A DNA stretch of 64,000 nt from Onchidella celtica (lineage: Eukaryota; Mollusca; Gastropoda; Systellommatophora; Onchidiidae): contig OZ007569.1 of assembly GCA_963931925.1 (NCBI GenBank), positions 30,199,612 to 30,263,611 of the forward strand, in the 5' to 3' direction. Position numbers and translations under genes: made by a program. Shown in pieces: positions 26,955 to 56,150 of the stretch. The notes under the pieces were generated by a model that saw only the letters and a program-made list of their open reading frames with translations, made no database searches and had not been told where the DNA came from. Each line of letters starts with the position of its first letter. The first letter of the stretch is position 1.

Positions 26955-27084
<130 letters not shown>

Positions 27085-33026: not shown

Positions 33027-34160
33027 GATGTACGAAAATAAATATTGAAGTACATGGAAAGAGTGTAGGTACGGTGTGTTACCTTTGAGAAATAATTATA
33101 GTACATAAACATGGGTCTCATCCATGGAAATTGTCATATAAATGCGTTGTTTGCATTCGTGTCTTCTACGCCTAGATGTTGGACCCTATTGAAACGGGTT
33201 CAAAAGACAGTGTCTCCTCCACTGACAGTAGGACTAATCATAATTGCAACCACTCAATCCCAATACCCCCCCCCCCGGGCCTTCCGCCCCCCCAAAAAAC
33301 CGTTAGTCTCATCTTAACTTTGTTTTTCTTTCTACACAGTGTCTTAGACACCTGACTCCTGAGACAGGAACAGTAGCCAAGAGAGGAATTGAGGGGGAAC
33401 TCGAAAGTGGGAAAGGCTGTACTCTGTACATAGGGTATATCGAGGATCGGCAACCAGAACGTTTTATGTCCAAAATCGTCAACTTGAGAGAGACGACTTT
33501 GAAAGTTGTAATTTTAAAGAAAATTCAATTAATTGCAACAACTTCAACACTGTAACATGAACAGTTTTATTGTGTTATGAAATAAAGTCACACACAAGTT
33601 GTGTCTTGGATATCTACAGACATTTAAGAGCAATGAATAAAATAGGACATAACATATTGATAAGACTCGATGTATTGGAATACCATACAACTATAAGAGC
33701 GAGCATGAATTAATTGTTCACAAAAACAACAACAACGACAAAAACTGTTGCTTCGCTCTGCATCCCATTTGGGATTATTCAATCACTAAGGTTAATGGTT
33801 ACCAAAGGAAAAGTAACATGATGAAATAAAAAATTATCAGATGACAATTCAAAATGGGAGAGGAATTGAGGAAACCTGGGATGGCAAGAAGGGGCATGTG
33901 GCCTGGAACTCTGAGAACCGCTGTTATTTAGCCTGACATTGTAGCACTCGGCGGTATGTTACGGTGGGAAGTTATAATGTATTAGCCTGGAGTTATCACG
34001 AATAGGTGCCTTTGAACTTTCTCTCTCGTTACCACTTGGAGTTCAGCTGACATTCAAGACGGTACAATTTATAGCTGGGGTTTCAATTCAGGTGACCACG
34101 TTGTGCACAGCTTATATTGGCTGTCTGAAATGTTTGGCTGTAGGCATTTAATGTTTTGTA
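33027..34160. other. Intergenic DNA before the duplicated block
   Basis: No gene is supported. Poly-C runs occur at 33267-33278 and 33289-33295. Confidence 0.4.
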
Positions 34161-34760
34161 TAAAGATAATTACTGACTGAGAGAGAGAAAAAACGAAAAG
34201 GATAAGACTGGCTGATGAGGAAGGTACATGTCCAATTTCTTGTACAAACTTCACTACTTTTTTATTTTTAGTTTTATCGTGTCAGTTTTGGCTGTAAATT
34301 TTGTGTGCTACCCTCCCTTTCTCTATTTTTCTTCCTCTTCCTCCTTTGGACTCTTGTTATAAGTTAAAAGTTATTCCAAGACGATACAAAACCTTGTGCG
34401 TTAACAATTGAAGGGACCAGTTCTATACCATGGCCAAGTTCACTTGGATTCCAAAACAGATTATGCATTAAGATCGGTGAAAGTACCGCCTTGTGTTAAA
34501 AGCAAAAATTAACACAAGATTGGTCTTATACAGTGAGGGTTGAGTTCGAGTTCGACTTTGGAGAAAGCACTAGACGACGCGATAGCGGTCACGTTGTGCT
34601 AGGAAGAAGCAAGGCGATAGGTATAGACAGAATGTAGCAGAATGATAGGACAGAAAGAATTCCTATTCTTGAGTGAGGCGCCGTGAAATAACTGACCTTT
34701 TCAAACAGGACCGAAGAGCACTTTCTGCTCAACATTTCAGTTTCAAAAGCTTTGTTAAGA
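34161..34760. repeat. Left copy of a 600-bp perfect direct repeat flanking the young LINE
   Basis: 34161-34760 and 38440-39039 are identical over 600 bp by base-by-base reading, with no indel. The next bases of the left copy (TTCAGGCA) and the right copy (CTCAGGCA) still differ by only one. The left copy ends where the LINE 5' region begins and the right copy starts exactly at the LINE ATG-repeat tail, as a target-site duplication would. Confidence 0.9.
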
Positions 34761-35439
34761 TTCAGGCAGAATCGTGCCGACGCCTGGACAGATTGGAATT
34801 TTCTGTATGGAGTAATGGACATGGGTATGGCTACGCTTTTATACTGTGCAGCCACCTGCAAATTACCGTCCAAATCCCTAGATTTGATTGGTGCATCCAT
34901 GCGAGGTCATCTCGCAGTATTAATATATTCTACGTGGGAGTTGGTCACGGCCTTGTACTAAAAACAGACAAGGTCAATTTAAAATGTCAAAACAATTACT
35001 GAAATCTTTAAACCCTCGTGCTTTCTACATTTTATGTACGAATTTCTGAACGCGACTAAGCGTCTTAAACTATCTATCCTTATTCACCCCTTCTCTTCCC
35101 TTCTAAGTGTTCATCAAAATCACGGGGTCGAGAATTGCACTGTCACTCCTAACTTATCCATTTATTCTATCTCGCCCCACTTTCTTTCCATCTCTATTCG
35201 CCCGTGCAGATGCGGGGCTCTCTTGTAGAAGAGGGACAGCAGAGAATACATCTGACGTGATACTGCGTGTCGTAAGAGGCGACTAAAGGTGCAAAGGTCC
35301 TGGTCTCCCGAGAAGAGCCAGTTGGCGGTGGGCCAACTACCCACCCTGTAAAAATAAACCAGTTACAGAAACACAAGCAAATACTTCAAATCAGTCTTTT
35401 ATCTTGGGAGAAGGGGGAGCATCTGCACCTGTAGATTCA

Positions 35440-38304
35440 ATGAAGGACAATGGACAAAGCCGAAAGGACGCCACTGGCCCGACTGCTCCTTCATCAAGCA
35501 AGTCACTCCGGATTGCGTCGTGGAATGTCCGCTCCATGTATGAAGCAGGAAAGAGTGCCCAGGTTACAATGGAGATGAGGCGATACAGACTGCACATACT
35601 TGGAGTTAGCGAGACCCGCTGGATACAGTCCGGACTGAAACAACTTAATACTGGGGAAAAGATTTTGTATTCTGGAAGGGAGGACAAAAAGCATACAGAA
35701 GGAGTAGCGATCATCTTGAGCAAGCACGCCCAGAGGTCACTGAGGGGATGGGAACCCTATGGAAGGAGAATTATATTGGCATCATTTACTACTAAGAACA
35801 AGAACATCAACATGAACATTGTGCAGATATACGCCCCAACAAATGAAGCAACCGATGAGGACAAGGACGACTTCTACAACCAGCTTCAGGAAATAGTTGA
35901 CACATTGCCAAGAAAAGATGTGAACATTATAATGGGAGACGCCAATGCCAAGATAGGACAGGACAATACAGGGTATGAGGACATTATGGGGTGCAATGGT
36001 TTAGGACAAATGAATGAGAATGGAGAGCGGTTTGCAAGTTTCTGCGCATTTAACAGCTATGTGATTGGAGGTTCAGTATTCCCACACAAGAGGATCCATA
36101 AGGCCACTTGGATTTCACCGGATGGAGTAACTGAAAATCAGATTGACCACTTTTGCATCACCCGACGATTCAGACGCTCACTAGAGGATGTCATAGTACA
36201 GAGAGGAGCAGATGTTGGATCTGACCATCACATGCTGCTGGCAAGACTCAAACTCCGCCTCAAGAAACAAGGTACCAGAGCAGGAACAAAGAGGAGAAAG
36301 TTTCAAGTGAGCCTTCTGGATGGAGACAAGAAGGAAGAGTTCCAGCTGACACTGAGGAATAGATTCAAACCCCTTGTTGACCCCGAAGAGACAGTAGATT
36401 TGGAGACTCACTGGGCTAAGGTAAAAGGAGTATTTACATCGACATGTCAGGATGTTATTGGGGAAAAGAAAGTGGAACACAAGGAATGGATCAGTCAAAA
36501 ATCACTGGACTTGATAAGGATAAGAAGAGACCTAAAAGAACGGGTAAATGCAAGTCGTACAAGAAGCTCAAGAGTTGGTAACCAGGAAGAGTACCGAGCA
36601 TCAGCTAAAGAGGTCAAAAAATCAATTAAAAAAGACAAAGAGGAGTTCATAGGAATGTTAGCAGAGAAAGCAGAGAAGGCAGCAACAGGAGGACACATGA
36701 GGATCCTCTACCAGACTACAAAGACTCTTGCTGGAAAATATGGAAAACCTGAAGTTCCTGTCAAGGATTACAACAGGAAGGCTATTTTTGGAAAGGAAGC
36801 TCAGGCAAAAAGATGGATAGAACATTTTAACAGCCTCTTGAACAGACCTCCACCAAGCAACCCACCCGACATTCTACCCGCAAGAAATGATTTACCGATC
36901 AGTTGCGACCCTCCGACTAAAGCAGAGATTAATGATGCCATAAAGCAGTTAAATCGAGGCAAGGCAGCTGGACCAGACCAGATCCCACCAGAGGCGCTGA
37001 AGGCAGATGCTGCTGGGGCTGCAGAGGGTCTGCACTCACTATTCTCGAGGATTTGGATCGGAGGCAAGTTTCCAAAGGACTGGAAGGAAGGACACCTCGT
37101 GAAGCTCCCAAAAAAAGGGGACCTCAGCAATTGTAGTAACTACAGAGGAATCACACTTCTCTCCATCCCAGGAAAGGTTTTCAATCGGATTATTCTCAAG
37201 CGAATACAGAATGCAACAGACCAAAAACTTCGCGAGGAGCAAGCTGGTTTCAGGAGTAATCGATCAACCACCGACCAGATCGCCACGCTGAGAATCATAG
37301 TAGAGCAGTCGCTAGAGTGGAACTCCCAACTGATAGTGAACTTCCTTGACTACGAGAAGGCCTTTGATAGCATCGATAGAGAAACACTGTGGAGAATATT
37401 GAGACATTATGGAATCCCAGAGAAGATGGTGAATCTTATCAAGAGCATGTACGAGGGGACAAGTTGCAGAGTCGTACATGATGGTGAGCTTACTGACAGC
37501 TTTGATATCAAGACTGGTGTTAGGCAGGGTTGTTTGCTGTCCCCATTTCTGTTTATCCTGGTGATTGATTGGCTTATGAAAGAAACCACCAGTGGAGGAA
37601 GAAATGGCATACAATGGACCCCATGGACACAGCTGGACGATCTAGATTTTGCAGATGACTTGGCACTATTGTCGCACACACACGACCAGATGCAAGCAAA
37701 GACTACAGCTCTAAACAAAATTTCAGAATCTATTGGATTGAGGATACATCCCGCGAAGTCGAAGGTCCTAAAAATTGTTGCACCCCTAAGCGAACAAGTC
37801 ACAGTAGGAGATCAACCACTGGAAGATGTAGAGTCCTTCTGCTATCTTGGTAGTATCATTGACAATAAGGGAGGAACAGAGGCAGAAGTCAAAGCACGAA
37901 TTGGAAAGGCACAGGCAGCTTTCACATCCTTAAGCAAGATTTGGAGAACCAAGGATATATCTCTAAAAACAAAGCTGAGGATATCCAACTCGAACGTGAA
38001 GTCAGTCCTGTTGTATGGATGTGAGACTTGGAATGCGTCCCAGGCCTGCATAAAGAGAATCCAAGTTTTCATCAACAGATGTTTGAGGAAGCTACTTAAG
38101 ATCAGATGGACAGACAAGGTCAGCAATGAAATTGTATGGAAAAGAACAAGACAGAACCCAGTCAGAGAGGAAATTGGTAGGAGGCGATGGAGATGGATCG
38201 GCCACACTCTCAGGAGGCCAGGAAACAGCATCACGAAGAAGGTATTGGACTGGAATCCCCAGGGCAAGAGATCAAGAGGAAGGCCGCGCGGAACGTGGAG
38301 ATGA
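35440..38304 (+). CDS. Endonuclease-reverse transcriptase of RTE-like LINE, premature TGA near C terminus
   Basis: An APE-type endonuclease joined to a reverse transcriptase. The first ATG is at 35440; the open frame without ATG reaches 35404. Numbered from 35404, the endonuclease has ASWNVRSM near 38-45, GVSETRW near 67-73, MGDANAKIG near 177-185 and GSDHHML near 272-278. The RT has YRGITLLS, palm FLDYEKAFD near 646, GVRQGCLLSP and catalytic LDFADDLALL near 747-756. The C-terminal part has CLRKLLKIRW, RRWRWIGH and GRPRGTWR. The frame then stops at TGA 38302-38304, but the same frame downstream still reads like the usual RTE tail (GKTWNNVK, LAHDREGW, GGLYPDPG) up to a second TGA at 38419-38421. 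The shorter end is therefore probably a recent nonsense change, shared with the copy at 55038. Confidence 0.9.
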   Translation: MKDNGQSRKDATGPTAPSSSKSLRIASWNVRSMYEAGKSAQVTMEMRRYRLHILGVSETRWIQSGLKQLNTGEKILYSGREDKKHTEGVAIILSKHAQRSLRGWEPYGRRIILASFTTKNKNINMNIVQIYAPTNEATDEDKDDFYNQLQEIVDTLPRKDVNIIMGDANAKIGQDNTGYEDIMGCNGLGQMNENGERFASFCAFNSYVIGGSVFPHKRIHKATWISPDGVTENQIDHFCITRRFRRSLEDVIVQRGADVGSDHHMLLARLKLRLKKQGTRAGTKRRKFQVSLLDGDKKEEFQLTLRNRFKPLVDPEETVDLETHWAKVKGVFTSTCQDVIGEKKVEHKEWISQKSLDLIRIRRDLKERVNASRTRSSRVGNQEEYRASAKEVKKSIKKDKEEFIGMLAEKAEKAATGGHMRILYQTTKTLAGKYGKPEVPVKDYNRKAIFGKEAQAKRWIEHFNSLLNRPPPSNPPDILPARNDLPISCDPPTKAEINDAIKQLNRGKAAGPDQIPPEALKADAAGAAEGLHSLFSRIWIGGKFPKDWKEGHLVKLPKKGDLSNCSNYRGITLLSIPGKVFNRIILKRIQNATDQKLREEQAGFRSNRSTTDQIATLRIIVEQSLEWNSQLIVNFLDYEKAFDSIDRETLWRILRHYGIPEKMVNLIKSMYEGTSCRVVHDGELTDSFDIKTGVRQGCLLSPFLFILVIDWLMKETTSGGRNGIQWTPWTQLDDLDFADDLALLSHTHDQMQAKTTALNKISESIGLRIHPAKSKVLKIVAPLSEQVTVGDQPLEDVESFCYLGSIIDNKGGTEAEVKARIGKAQAAFTSLSKIWRTKDISLKTKLRISNSNVKSVLLYGCETWNASQACIKRIQVFINRCLRKLLKIRWTDKVSNEIVWKRTRQNPVREEIGRRRWRWIGHTLRRPGNSITKKVLDWNPQGKRSRGRPRGTWR

Positions 38305-38421
38305 GCCAGAGAAAATGATGTGCAACGAAGCGGAAAGACTTGGAATAATGTAAAGAGGCTGGCCCATGATAGAGAGGGATGGAAGGTGTTTGTTGGTGGC
38401 CTATACCCTGATCCAGGGTGA
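38302..38421 (+). pseudogene. C-terminal LINE coding remnant after the shared TGA
   Basis: Thirty-nine in-frame codons follow the TGA, keep the tryptophan and GGLYP landmarks of this protein end, and finish at a natural-looking TGA just before the ATG-repeat tail. Confidence 0.7.
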
Positions 38422-38439
38422 GAAAGGCAATGATGATGA

Positions 38440-39039
38440 TAAAGATAATTACTGACTGAGAGAGAGAAAAAACGAAAAGGATAAGACTGGCTGATGAGGA
38501 AGGTACATGTCCAATTTCTTGTACAAACTTCACTACTTTTTTATTTTTAGTTTTATCGTGTCAGTTTTGGCTGTAAATTTTGTGTGCTACCCTCCCTTTC
38601 TCTATTTTTCTTCCTCTTCCTCCTTTGGACTCTTGTTATAAGTTAAAAGTTATTCCAAGACGATACAAAACCTTGTGCGTTAACAATTGAAGGGACCAGT
38701 TCTATACCATGGCCAAGTTCACTTGGATTCCAAAACAGATTATGCATTAAGATCGGTGAAAGTACCGCCTTGTGTTAAAAGCAAAAATTAACACAAGATT
38801 GGTCTTATACAGTGAGGGTTGAGTTCGAGTTCGACTTTGGAGAAAGCACTAGACGACGCGATAGCGGTCACGTTGTGCTAGGAAGAAGCAAGGCGATAGG
38901 TATAGACAGAATGTAGCAGAATGATAGGACAGAAAGAATTCCTATTCTTGAGTGAGGCGCCGTGAAATAACTGACCTTTTCAAACAGGACCGAAGAGCAC
39001 TTTCTGCTCAACATTTCAGTTTCAAAAGCTTTGTTAAGA
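38440..39039. repeat. Right copy of the 600-bp perfect direct repeat
   Basis: Identical to 34161-34760. It does not begin TG or end CA and contains no primer-binding or polypurine features, so it is not an LTR. Confidence 0.9.
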
Positions 39040-39666
39040 CTCAGGCATGATAAAATTTAGAATAAAACTAAGCCCTTCATTTTTTTTTTATACATTCACG
39101 TGGGAGTTCCTCCAGCAGTCTTTCGTGAGTGGAAAGCATTACTGGTAGGACCTTTCTGAGTCCTGACCACTTATTCAGCATCTGCCATATCTGTATTTTT
39201 CTTTGTAGGCCTACTTATGTAATGAATGCCCCTCTAACTGTTGTTTTCTCAAGCATGTTTCTCGAGCTCGAATTACTTACATTTTGCAGTCAAAATGTCA
39301 ACATTCAACAAATGTTTAAACTTCCTCCTGGTTAACTTTTGGTTTAAAATCTAAGTTTATCATTCTGGTTTTGGACACTGTTATCGTTGTTGTTGGTTTG
39401 TACGAAATGACCCACACAATTATATAGACGTGTTATTATATTAAACATTTTAATATCTTTACCACGTCACACTCCGCCGTTCATTTTCAACTTAGTCCCA
39501 GCCCTTGTTTCTTCTGAATTTCTTTGCCCTGAATATCCTTTATAAATTGTAAATTGCGGAAACACACTGAGTACATAATGATCAAGCCCGCCTTTCTTGA
39601 AACCGTTAAAAATGTATCTAATTGTAGCCGGTGCCTGGAAACGTTTTAAAATGTTATTTGACAACT
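39040..39666. other. Intergenic DNA
   Basis: It begins CTCAGGCATGAT, the presumed pre-insertion continuation of the target. No other feature is seen. Confidence 0.4.
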
Positions 39667-41660: not shown

Positions 41661-43270
41661 GCAGGTAGATAGAAGAATGCACAGAGAAAGAACAGGTTGA
41701 TGAAAAGCAGGCGAGATGGACGGCGTAATGAATCTAGGAAAGCCGAACTTAATTAATTGCATGCAAATCTAAAAATTCCCTTAGGGCAGACCATCTGATA
41801 AAATTGCTATTGATCTGTTATTTTTACTTTGATCTGGTCACGGCCCACTTTATCGGAACAATCTTCCACCCTTTTTTCATTGGCGTCATAACATTCATAG
41901 TCCTCCATGGGCCATCAATCTTACAGAGCATCTAGTACGATTTCCACAGCTGGTTGAAAAAGGAAGTTCAGATTATTTTCTGCATATTAACTTCACTGCC
42001 ACTGGGCAGTAATGCAGTATAGGAGGAGGATTGGGGGTGGGGGGGGGGGACAGCATTTTGTGGCGGGTTCCAGTAGCTGCTTATTTAGAGAAATATGATG
42101 AAATTTTAAATTACTCTGTCTATTGTCATTGCAGCAATTACCTTCAGATTTTGTCAGTAATATTGCTTTATAGGGACTCAGAAAAGTGGCCTTTTCAAAG
42201 ACCTGGAGATTTTCCAAGCTACATGAGTCTGGGGTACACATTTTGGTCCGGAAATGTGCCTGGCTAGGTAGTGAAGGGGTGAATTTTATCTCTAAGGGCA
42301 GTAAAGTGTTCCATTTCCAAAGCAAGAGTGCACTGAAACTTTCCTGTGGACGTTTTCAAGGAGAAGTATGCTGTTGGATCTTTAAAAAAAAATCACCGGG
42401 TGCAAGTAGAAACAAGCATCGAGGAATGCATGTTGTTACAAATCTGATACTGGGTGGTAGTGCCCTCTAGCTGTTATGAAGAGGGTCTTCTCAATGATGG
42501 AATTATGACTGCATTTTAAATCGAGAGGTATTTACTACTTACTCTTTCGTACCATGCCACACACTAAGAACAATCTGAATAAGTTTCATAAACAGACCTG
42601 CAGGGCCACAAATTTAATTACATTAAATTTCCTAACAATTTTGTCTAGATCTATTACATACTAAAAGACAACATCAGCAGCATCAAATGAAAATTCAATA
42701 ATATGTCACTAGAAGTCTTCTCTAGATTCCTATAAGGTTATGATCATTCTGACTCACTAACAATTTAAGTACTAGTTATATATCTCTCAGATATAGGCTG
42801 CCTACTATCTATCAAGCAATATACTAATGTCTCTGGCGACGATGTCATCTCAGCTATTTGTGCCTACCGCTTATAATGGAGCAAGCTCGTCAATATAAAC
42901 TGACGTAGTTAAGTCTATTGGATCTACTCTAGGATGGGCTGGCAATCCCCAGCCTCATCCAGACAAATCAATCCCAATTCACAGATGTGTATGCCAAACA
43001 TTCATACTAGTGGCAAGTCAATATAAATCTTTGCCTTGCATTCTTGGGTAGCACTCCTAGCATATGCGGCAATCCTGTCCTACTGGATAAATTATGTTCA
43101 GTTCCTCGTTCATTGTTGAATCATCAAAGGACAAACACTTACACTTGGTCCCTGGTGTTAGAAAAACCAGGGAACAGTAGACAATAGCAGTGGGCATATC
43201 TCATTCAAGCATATGGCTTCATCTCAATGTCTATAGTGGACTAGACATGAATCAACAGTCTTATGATTCT
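41661..43270. other. Intergenic DNA
   Basis: Nothing recognisable apart from a G run at 42037-42050. Confidence 0.4.
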
Positions 43271-43705
43271 TCAGGCAGAATCGTGCCGACGCCTGCACAG
43301 ATTGGAATTTTCTGTATGGAGTAATGGACATGGGTATGGCTACGCTTTTATACTGTGCAGCCACCTGCAAATTACCGTCCAAATCCCTAGATTTGATTGG
43401 TGCATCCATGCGAGGTCATCTCGCAGTATTAATATATTCTACGTGGGAGTTGGTCACGGCCTTGTACTAAAAACAGACAAGGTCAATTTAAAATGTCAAA
43501 ACAATTACTGAAATCTTTAAACCCTCGTGCTTTCTACATTTTATGTACGAATTTCTGAACGCGACTAAGCGTCTTAAACTATCTATCCTTATTCACCCCT
43601 TCTCTTCCCTTCTAAGTGTTCATCAAAATCACGGGGTCGAGAATTGCACTGTCACTCCTAACTTATCCATTTATTCTATCTCGCCCCACTTTCTTTCCAT
43701 CTCTA
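43271..43705 (+). mobile_element. Detached copy of the young LINE 5' segment (435 bp)
   Basis: It is collinear with 34762-35196 over 435 bp without indels; the one mismatch I see is C at 43295 against G at 34786. Similarity starts at TCAGGCAGAATCG and stops after CTCTA on both copies, and no later LINE sequence follows. A LINE copy that keeps its 5' end and loses its 3' end is unusual. Confidence 0.85.
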
Positions 43706-43944
43706 AGAAAAAGTGTTTCAAAAACAAACTGTTCACGAGGACAGTTCAAGGACAAATTACGCTGGTTATAATCAACGAGACCGTGAAAAATCAACTCCTT
43801 GCACGTCGTGACCCAGCACGGCATTTATATTACTTAAACCCTGACACATGTAACATGAACAACAATAGAAAATAGATATGTCGCTCTAGTACTGCTTTAT
43901 CTCCACGTTTTACAAAAAAATTGAAATAAGGCCGCAATATCGTA

Positions 43945-55037: not shown

Positions 55038-56013
55038 ACTGATAGTGAACTTCCTTGACTACGAGAAGGCCTTTGATAGCATCGATAGAGAAGGACTGTG
55101 GAGAATATTGAGACATTATGGAATCCCAGAGAAGATGGTGAATCTTATCAAGAGCATGTACGAGGGGACAAGTTGCAGAGTCGTACATGATGGTGAGCTT
55201 ACTGACAGCTTTGATATCAAGACTGGTGTTAGGCAGGGTTGTTTGCTGTCCCCATTTCTGTTTATCCTGGTGATTGATTGGCTTATGAAAGAAACCACCA
55301 ATGGAGGAAGAAATGGCATACAATGGACCCCATGGACACAGCTGGACGATCTAGATTTTGCAGATGACTTGGCACTATTGTCGCACACACACGACCAGAT
55401 GCAAGCAAAGACTACAGCTCTAAACAAAATTTCAGAATCTATTGGATTGAGGATACATCCCGCGAAGTCGAAGGTCCTAAAAATTGTTGCACCCCTAAGC
55501 GAACAAGTCACAGTAGGAGATCAACCACTGGAAGATGTAGAGTCCTTCTGCTATCTTGGTAGTATCATTGACAATAAGGGAGGAACAGAGGCAGAAGTCA
55601 AAGCACGAATTGGAAAGGCACAGGCAGCTTTCACATCCTTAAGCAAGATTTGGAGAACCAAGGATATATCTCTAAAAACAAAGCTGAGGATATTCAACTC
55701 GAACGTGAAGTCAGTCCTGTTGTATGGATGTGAGACTTGGAATGCGTCCCAGGCCTGCATAAAGAGAATCCAAGTTTTCATCAACAGATGTTTGAGGAAG
55801 CTACTTAAGATCAGATGGACAGACAAGGTCAGCAATGAAATTGTATGGAAAAGAACAAGACAGAACCCAGTCAGAGAGGAAATTGGTAGGAGGCGATGGA
55901 GATGGATCGGCCACACGCTCAGGAGGCCAGGAAACAGCATCACGAAGAAGGTATTGGACTGGAATCCCCAGGGCAAGAGATCAAGAGGAAGGCCGCGCGG
56001 AACGTGGAGATGA
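55038..56013 (+). pseudogene. Truncated LINE reverse transcriptase fragment
   Basis: The open frame covers the RT from just before FLDYEKAFD through LDFADDLALL to GRPRGTWR and ends at the same TGA (56011-56013) as the longer copy. It lacks the endonuclease and the first RT blocks, so it is not a functional protein. The in-frame tail after the TGA is also kept, to 56130. Confidence 0.9.
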
Positions 56014-56150
56014 GCCAGAGAAAATGATGTGCAACGAAGCGGAAAGACTTGGAATAATGTAAAGAGGCTGGCCCATGATAGAGAGGGATGGAAGGTGTTT
56101 GTTGGTGGCCTATACCCTGATCCAGGGTGAGAAAGGCAATGATGATGATG
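55038..56150 (+). mobile_element. 5'-truncated copy of the young RTE-like LINE
   Basis: It is collinear with 37329-38441 without indels, with about five mismatches in 1100 bp, and ends in ATGATGATGATG. A perfect 12-bp target duplication flanks it. It begins in the middle of the RT domain, so it was dead on arrival. Confidence 0.95.

Follow-up and report, generated by a model that had tools for sequence, protein, structure and literature searches.

The window analysed here, a stretch of 64,000 nucleotides from Onchidella celtica (GenBank assembly GCA_963931925.1, contig OZ007569.1), carries a LINE that lies between two long, identical direct repeats, with a fragment of an LTR between the left repeat and the LINE. 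The features on which the account draws, numbered from the first base of the window, are given below.

34160 to 34760, forward strand: left copy of a 601-bp target duplication, 601/601 bases identical to 38439–39039
34761 to 34768, forward strand: LTR-target microhomology, TTCAGGCA here against CTCAGGCA at 39040–39047, 7/8 bases shared
34761 to 35196, forward strand: LTR fragment, the filler between target copy and LINE; LTR positions 837–1272, marker base G34906
35197 to 38438, forward strand: RTE-like LINE, full length, 3,242 bp, with an (ATG)n tail; its start matches that of other genomic copies
35287 to 38304, forward strand: open frame of 1,005 codons from stop to stop, endonuclease plus reverse transcriptase (Pfam Exo_endo_phos, RVT_1, DUF6451)
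38439 to 39039, forward strand: right copy of the 601-bp target duplication, 601/601 bases identical to the left copy
42434 to 43846, forward strand: solo LTR, 1,413 bp, with CATGT on both sides; donor of the 436-bp piece (43270–43705; marker G at 43415)
55038 to 56149, forward strand: 5'-truncated copy of the same LINE, 99.55% identity over 1,112 bp, with the 12-bp duplication ATGGCAAAAATT

The extent of the LINE was determined by searching the assembly of the window itself (1,140,862,475 bp in 43 contigs) with 140 bp across 35196|35197. The best 40 of 851 candidates comprised one full match to the LTR|LINE joint, which is the insertion locus, 37 rows on the LINE side and two on the LTR side only. 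As 27 of the 37 other LINE rows among these best 40 begin at query positions 68–71, corresponding to 35194–35197, the LINE starts at 35197 and is complete. The start motif TTCGCCCGTGC stood at the expected place in 23 of 28 first-batch copies, and the (ATG)n tail was present in all 28. A sequence-only reading of this DNA had let the left repeat end where the LINE begins; what starts there is instead the 436-bp LTR fragment.

Both Exo_endo_phos and RVT_1 scored above cut-off, giving a single frame with an apurinic-type endonuclease and a reverse transcriptase, and a PDB sequence search confirmed the LINE-type reverse transcriptase. No RNase H family appeared among the four Pfam matches at E up to 0.001. 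The domain set, the size of about 3.2 kb, the short tandem-repeat tail and the duplication length (7–12 bp in 27 of 28 first-batch copies, median 10, with RTE duplications known to peak at 10–12 bp; PMC4245944) fit the RTE clade, the name being given by structure. The frame stops at the TGA at 38302–38304; read by eye, LINE-like coding sequence continues in-frame nearly to the tail. Rfam and tRNA scans of the window returned no matches. Elsewhere in the window the insert matched only 55038–56149 and 43270–43705. Of the two further LINE insertions with 12-bp duplications that had been noted, one can be placed at 55038–56149, the truncated copy, whose last 141 bp are identical to those of the full-length LINE; the match at 43270–43705 is part of the solo LTR, with a 5-bp duplication.

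The identity of the filler was established with a genome search using 34761–35060, for which the best 40 of 1,485 candidates, all at 99–100%, were listed together with 30 loci: the insertion locus and 29 others (L010–L038, with L010 being the solo LTR of the window). At all 29 other loci the match to 34761–38438 is confined to the first 436 bp; one of them has a second match, at 76%, to the same 436 bp. A LINE 5' end at 34761 is ruled out, the sequence being internal to the LTR in all 29 other loci listed. Compared with the window around 43270, the common unit ends at 43846–43853 in 28/28 other loci and starts at 42429–42434 in 19/28. Its ends read TGTTACA...CCTGACA, and among 16 other LTR loci printed, one common sequence follows the LTR in five and another precedes it in three. 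The unit is thus an LTR by its TG...CA ends, its short target duplication and the adjacent internal sequence in other copies; the copy in the window is uninterrupted. Elsewhere, LTR copies lie about 3,976–3,983 bp apart in the same orientation (L014/L015 and L031/L032, on contigs C7 and C5), and on C1 three follow one another at a spacing of 3,973 bp, an arrangement suggestive of tandem elements with a period of about 4 kb that share LTRs.

Between the piece and the solo LTR of the window there is a single difference, at 34787, where all 29 compared LTR copies have C or T. The two share a G, at 34906 in the piece and 43415 in the solo LTR, that is C in 28/28 other fetched LTR copies. Genome-wide counts of the 32-mer gave 1,013 occurrences with C and two with G, the latter being the piece and this solo LTR. 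Since the G variant is confined to these two places, the neighbouring LTR is taken as the donor of the 436-bp piece; conversion of that LTR by the piece is much less likely. The solo LTR is now 8.5 kb distant and stood about 5 kb from the nick before insertion. Proximity therefore mattered, since a donor picked at random out of roughly a thousand copies would very rarely be the adjacent one.

Pairwise comparison within the window confirmed that 34161–34760 and 38440–39039 agree at 600/600 bases, as the sequence-only reading had it, and one extra base at the left extends the exact repeat to 601 bp (34160–34760 and 38439–39039), an identity far beyond chance. Exact identity breaks at T34761/C39040; with the TCAGGCA that follows, the repeat measures 609 bp with one mismatch. 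The right copy directly adjoins the (ATG)n tail, likewise as proposed, and the duplication starts at the LINE tail, with the LTR piece intervening on the 5' side. Direct repeats of more than 20 bp, one at each end of an insert, mark a long target-site duplication, and those found here are exact over 601 bp. A genome search with the 601-bp repeat (41 matches listed, 40 scored candidates of 1,673) gave two full-length matches, the left and right copies, and no third full copy among the matches listed. The other 39 were pieces of roughly 90–130 bp at 78–83% identity inside query positions 370–505. They mark an old dispersed repeat, about 115 bp long and present in many genome copies at about 80% identity, which lies within the 601-bp copies at 34530–34665 and 38809–38944.

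Where the LINE tail meets the target, the first base of the repeat is A and the base before it T, so that the left edge is a T|A step. A Tn-TA nick signature is described for RTE elements (PMC13295347). Over 28 family sites (27 fetched copies and the truncated copy in the window, with the insertion locus left out), the first base was A in 24, the step T|A occurred in 14, and TTT was found in 7 against a background of 11%. The nick profile built from these sites scores 3.63 at the left edge, a value reached by 1.3% of window positions, and is weak, left-out sites ranging from -6.8 to 8.4. On the other side of the LINE, its 5' end and the LTR share zero bases beyond their junction. The 7-base microhomology that had been proposed for the 5' join does exist as TCAGGCA, which occurs eight times in 63,992 window positions, both joints counted; it links the target to the LTR, however, and the LINE takes no part in it. 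Such matches are common, 99 shared 7-mers lying no more than 1 kb from the nick, so a switch had homologies available.

The sequence-only reading had suggested measuring the duplications of other copies of this LINE. All 37 other LINE rows among the best 40 of 851 were fetched, which makes the survey one of best-scoring copies and not a random sample. Duplications of 7–13 bp were found in 34 of the 37; two copies were unreadable and one had 3.8 kb. Among the 34 are the 27 copies with 7–12 bp already mentioned, of which 22 show a two- or three-base overlap to the LINE 5' end, as well as L101, L105, L107 and L111 with 9–13 bp, L099 and L113 with about 12 and 11 bp (read by eye), and L071, with an outer duplication of 10–12 bp round a nested opposite-sense pair (read by eye). 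Taken over these best-scoring copies, the counts rule out habitually long duplications in the LINE family. Together with the LINE 3' tail on the right copy and the T|A left edge, they support the earlier view that the repeats at the insertion locus are an oversized target-site duplication. The unreadable copies, L097 and L109, lie inside TCTA microsatellites elsewhere in the genome; the window has a perfect (TCTA)32.5 array of its own at 26955–27084. At L071, L072 and L095 (C2, LINE start 62833502, minus strand), head-to-head copies, with a one-sense piece and a long opposite-sense piece followed by a full-length copy, have the appearance of a nested insertion that recombination between the inverted copies turned round.

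The copy with 3.8 kb, L103 (contig C4, LINE start 55504895), has 3,811-bp direct repeats at 99.66% identity with 13 differing columns, and these repeats (with L104, L116, L117, L120 and L121) reach exactly to both LINE ends. It is without filler and has an ordinary TT overlap at the 5' joint; the nick profile 9 bp left of that joint is in the top 2.8%, better than the left edge at 4.9%. L103 could have arisen via two ordinary insertions and unequal crossing over, with the 13 differences possibly allelic. Long duplications were therefore seen in 2/38 copies, the insertion locus included and two copies being unreadable, and LTR filler at the insertion locus only.

Taken together, we favour, with a confidence somewhat above even, one aberrant LINE insertion that was finished with two locally copied stretches, the LTR piece and the 601-bp target. 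The process would have begun with a bottom-strand nick by the LINE endonuclease at 34159|34160; judging from the family-typical ends, reverse transcription would then have run from the (ATG)n tail through to the 5' end of the LINE RNA. An ordinary join would have met the target about 11 bp away; here the cDNA 3' end would have moved over to the neighbouring solo LTR, where 436 nt would have been copied from 43705 back to 43270; the marker variant identifies the donor, and the template was presumably chromosomal DNA as opposed to a local transcript. At a point 0.6 kb past the nick, TCAGGCA would next have let the new 3' end pair with the target; extension back over the 601 bp to the nick and sealing there would have followed. 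This sequence of steps would yield the order found, namely target copy, LTR piece, full-length LINE and target copy, with the left 601-bp copy taken as the newly copied one. Among the origins offered in the sequence-only reading, the second, copying of the target, comes closest.

Two lines of evidence favour a single event: i) the LTR joint coincides with the first base of the LINE, a position that a later rearrangement could have struck only by chance, and ii) the parts look equally young, with 0/601 and 1/436 differences. The direction of synthesis is read from one base. T34761 in the product is a base of the LTR and not of the target; LTR-to-target synthesis predicts T at this position, and priming by the target top strand predicts C unless repaired, so T34761 favours the cDNA end as primer. 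Because the LINE|LTR joint is without a shared base, an enzyme jump to a free end fits it better than annealing to DNA, and this first, homology-free switch resembles the end-to-end jumps of LINE reverse transcriptases. The second switch, with 7 nt, resembles annealing. Against the favoured reading, besides the joint without homology and the reliance on one base for the direction, stand the weak nick profile, with T|A in only half of the family sites and TTT in a quarter, the well-scoring nick positions close to the LTR joint, which would also suit an ordinary insertion there, and the second long duplication, L103, which has an ordinary joint and no filler. More tentatively, at a confidence below even, the LINE cDNA end, once reverse transcription is complete, may act like a broken replication end and twice invade chromosomal DNA close to the nick, first gaining a 436-bp copy of LTR and then a 601-bp copy of target. 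If true, kilobase-scale duplications in this LINE family would reflect local template switching, not a distant second-strand cut.

Unlikely, yet the most serious competitor, is an RNA template switch to a local LTR transcript, after which the cDNA would have been caught by a top-strand nick about 609 bp downstream to give a classical long target-site duplication. The LTR piece is in sense orientation and starts at TTCAG, which we take to resemble a transcription initiator. The LINE|LTR joint without microhomology also suits this explanation, and RNA-switch chimeras and long duplications have both been described (PMC2104539, PMC13174262, PMC5223499, PMC2666801). It is disfavoured by the choice of donor, in that a free RNA would rarely derive from one neighbour among about a thousand copies unless it were nascent, and by the absence of AATAAA from the LTR and of poly(A) from the LTR|LINE joint. 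The missing AATAAA likewise bears on the narrower idea that the filler may be exactly an R-region transcript of the LTR.

The same final structure would result from two insertions on different chromosomes, one of a LINE at 34160 and the other of a chimeric LTR-LINE at 39047, followed by a crossover inside the LINEs. The nick profile does show ordinary-looking positions at 4 bp (top 4.4%) and 8 bp (top 2.2%) to the left of the LTR joint, which is the right-hand joint in this scheme. The scheme nevertheless requires that two insertions of one family fell within 0.6 kb, that a crossover followed, and that a local LTR chimera formed all the same, and the two repeat copies show 0/601 differences; we regard it as improbable. 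About as improbable is a normal LINE insertion whose 5' edge later broke and was repaired by copying in the 601 bp and the LTR piece. Such repair could have drawn on the same local templates, with homology from the right-hand duplication copy, but a joint at the LINE's first base would be a coincidence for a later break, and the target-primed order predicts C at 34761, where T is found. An assembly artefact at a heterozygous insertion, suggested by the 100% identity of the repeats, is also very unlikely: the LINE has family ends on both sides, and the filler, placed exactly at the LINE's first base, has a unique downstream donor, an arrangement that would not be expected from a mis-join. Least credible of all is 5' transduction, in which a source LINE would once have occupied position 43705 inside this solo LTR on another chromosome and its LTR-driven transcript would have been inserted a short way off: it would supply LTR-LINE RNA in one piece with the correct marker, but the LTR|LINE joint has its one full genome match (among the best 40 of 851) at the insertion locus, the solo LTR is uninterrupted, and landing a few kb away would be luck.

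Of all steps in retrotransposition, the attachment of the LINE 5' end to the chromosome is the least understood, and the insertion locus is a rare, readable record of how LINE insertions get completed. Here the donor can be told from a marker base, and a mismatch gives a hint of which way synthesis ran; competing models consequently make different predictions. The locus also illustrates that a LINE insertion can duplicate adjacent DNA and bring in a fragment of a nearby LTR, filler that can pass wrongly for the LINE's own 5' end. The closest analogy in DNA repair is microhomology-mediated break-induced replication, or FoSTeS, in which nearby templates are copied serially via short homologies with local duplication; the difference is that the invading end here would be retrotransposon cDNA.

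Among RTE elements, Rte-1 of C. elegans reportedly made a 200-bp duplication. A 20-bp duplication is described for a butterfly RTE (PMC2887409). For human L1 in HeLa cells, duplications of more than 100 bp never exceeded 10%, whereas in three NER-deficient lines they made up 47/58 readable inserts (4/7, 21/23 and 22/28, or 57–91%; PMC5223499), and zebrafish ZfL2-2 in wild-type DT40 cells gave one 1,228-bp duplication among 25 inserts (PMC2666801). As in those inserts, the LINE described here lies between direct repeats of hundreds to thousands of bp; unlike them, it has LTR filler from a neighbour, of which the consulted parts of those reports make no mention (PMC5223499, PMC2666801). Chimeras formed via RNA template switch are known from a fungus and from mammals, and share with this locus a sense foreign sequence on the LINE 5' side within one insertion (PMC2104539, PMC13174262). 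Those chimeric retrogenes, as described there, have an RNA partner and duplications of about 10–20 bp, in contrast to the neighbouring-locus donor and the 601 bp found here (PMC2104539, PMC13174262). The locus accordingly falls outside the class defined by a cellular RNA acting in trans and repeats of about 10–20 bp, although a nascent local transcript is conceivable. Extra nucleotides at the 5' joints of zebrafish LINEs are templated by flanking DNA (PMC4245944, PMC4760211), and the likeness to the present case lies in the use of flanking genomic or LINE DNA as template after annealing; at this locus, by contrast, the copied DNA amounts to 436 bp from a repeat about 5 kb off and a 601-bp target copy. 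None of the literature searched by title and abstract start described a long duplication together with a locally copied LTR piece at one LINE insertion; long duplications and LINE chimeras are each known, and their combination with a traceable donor is new.
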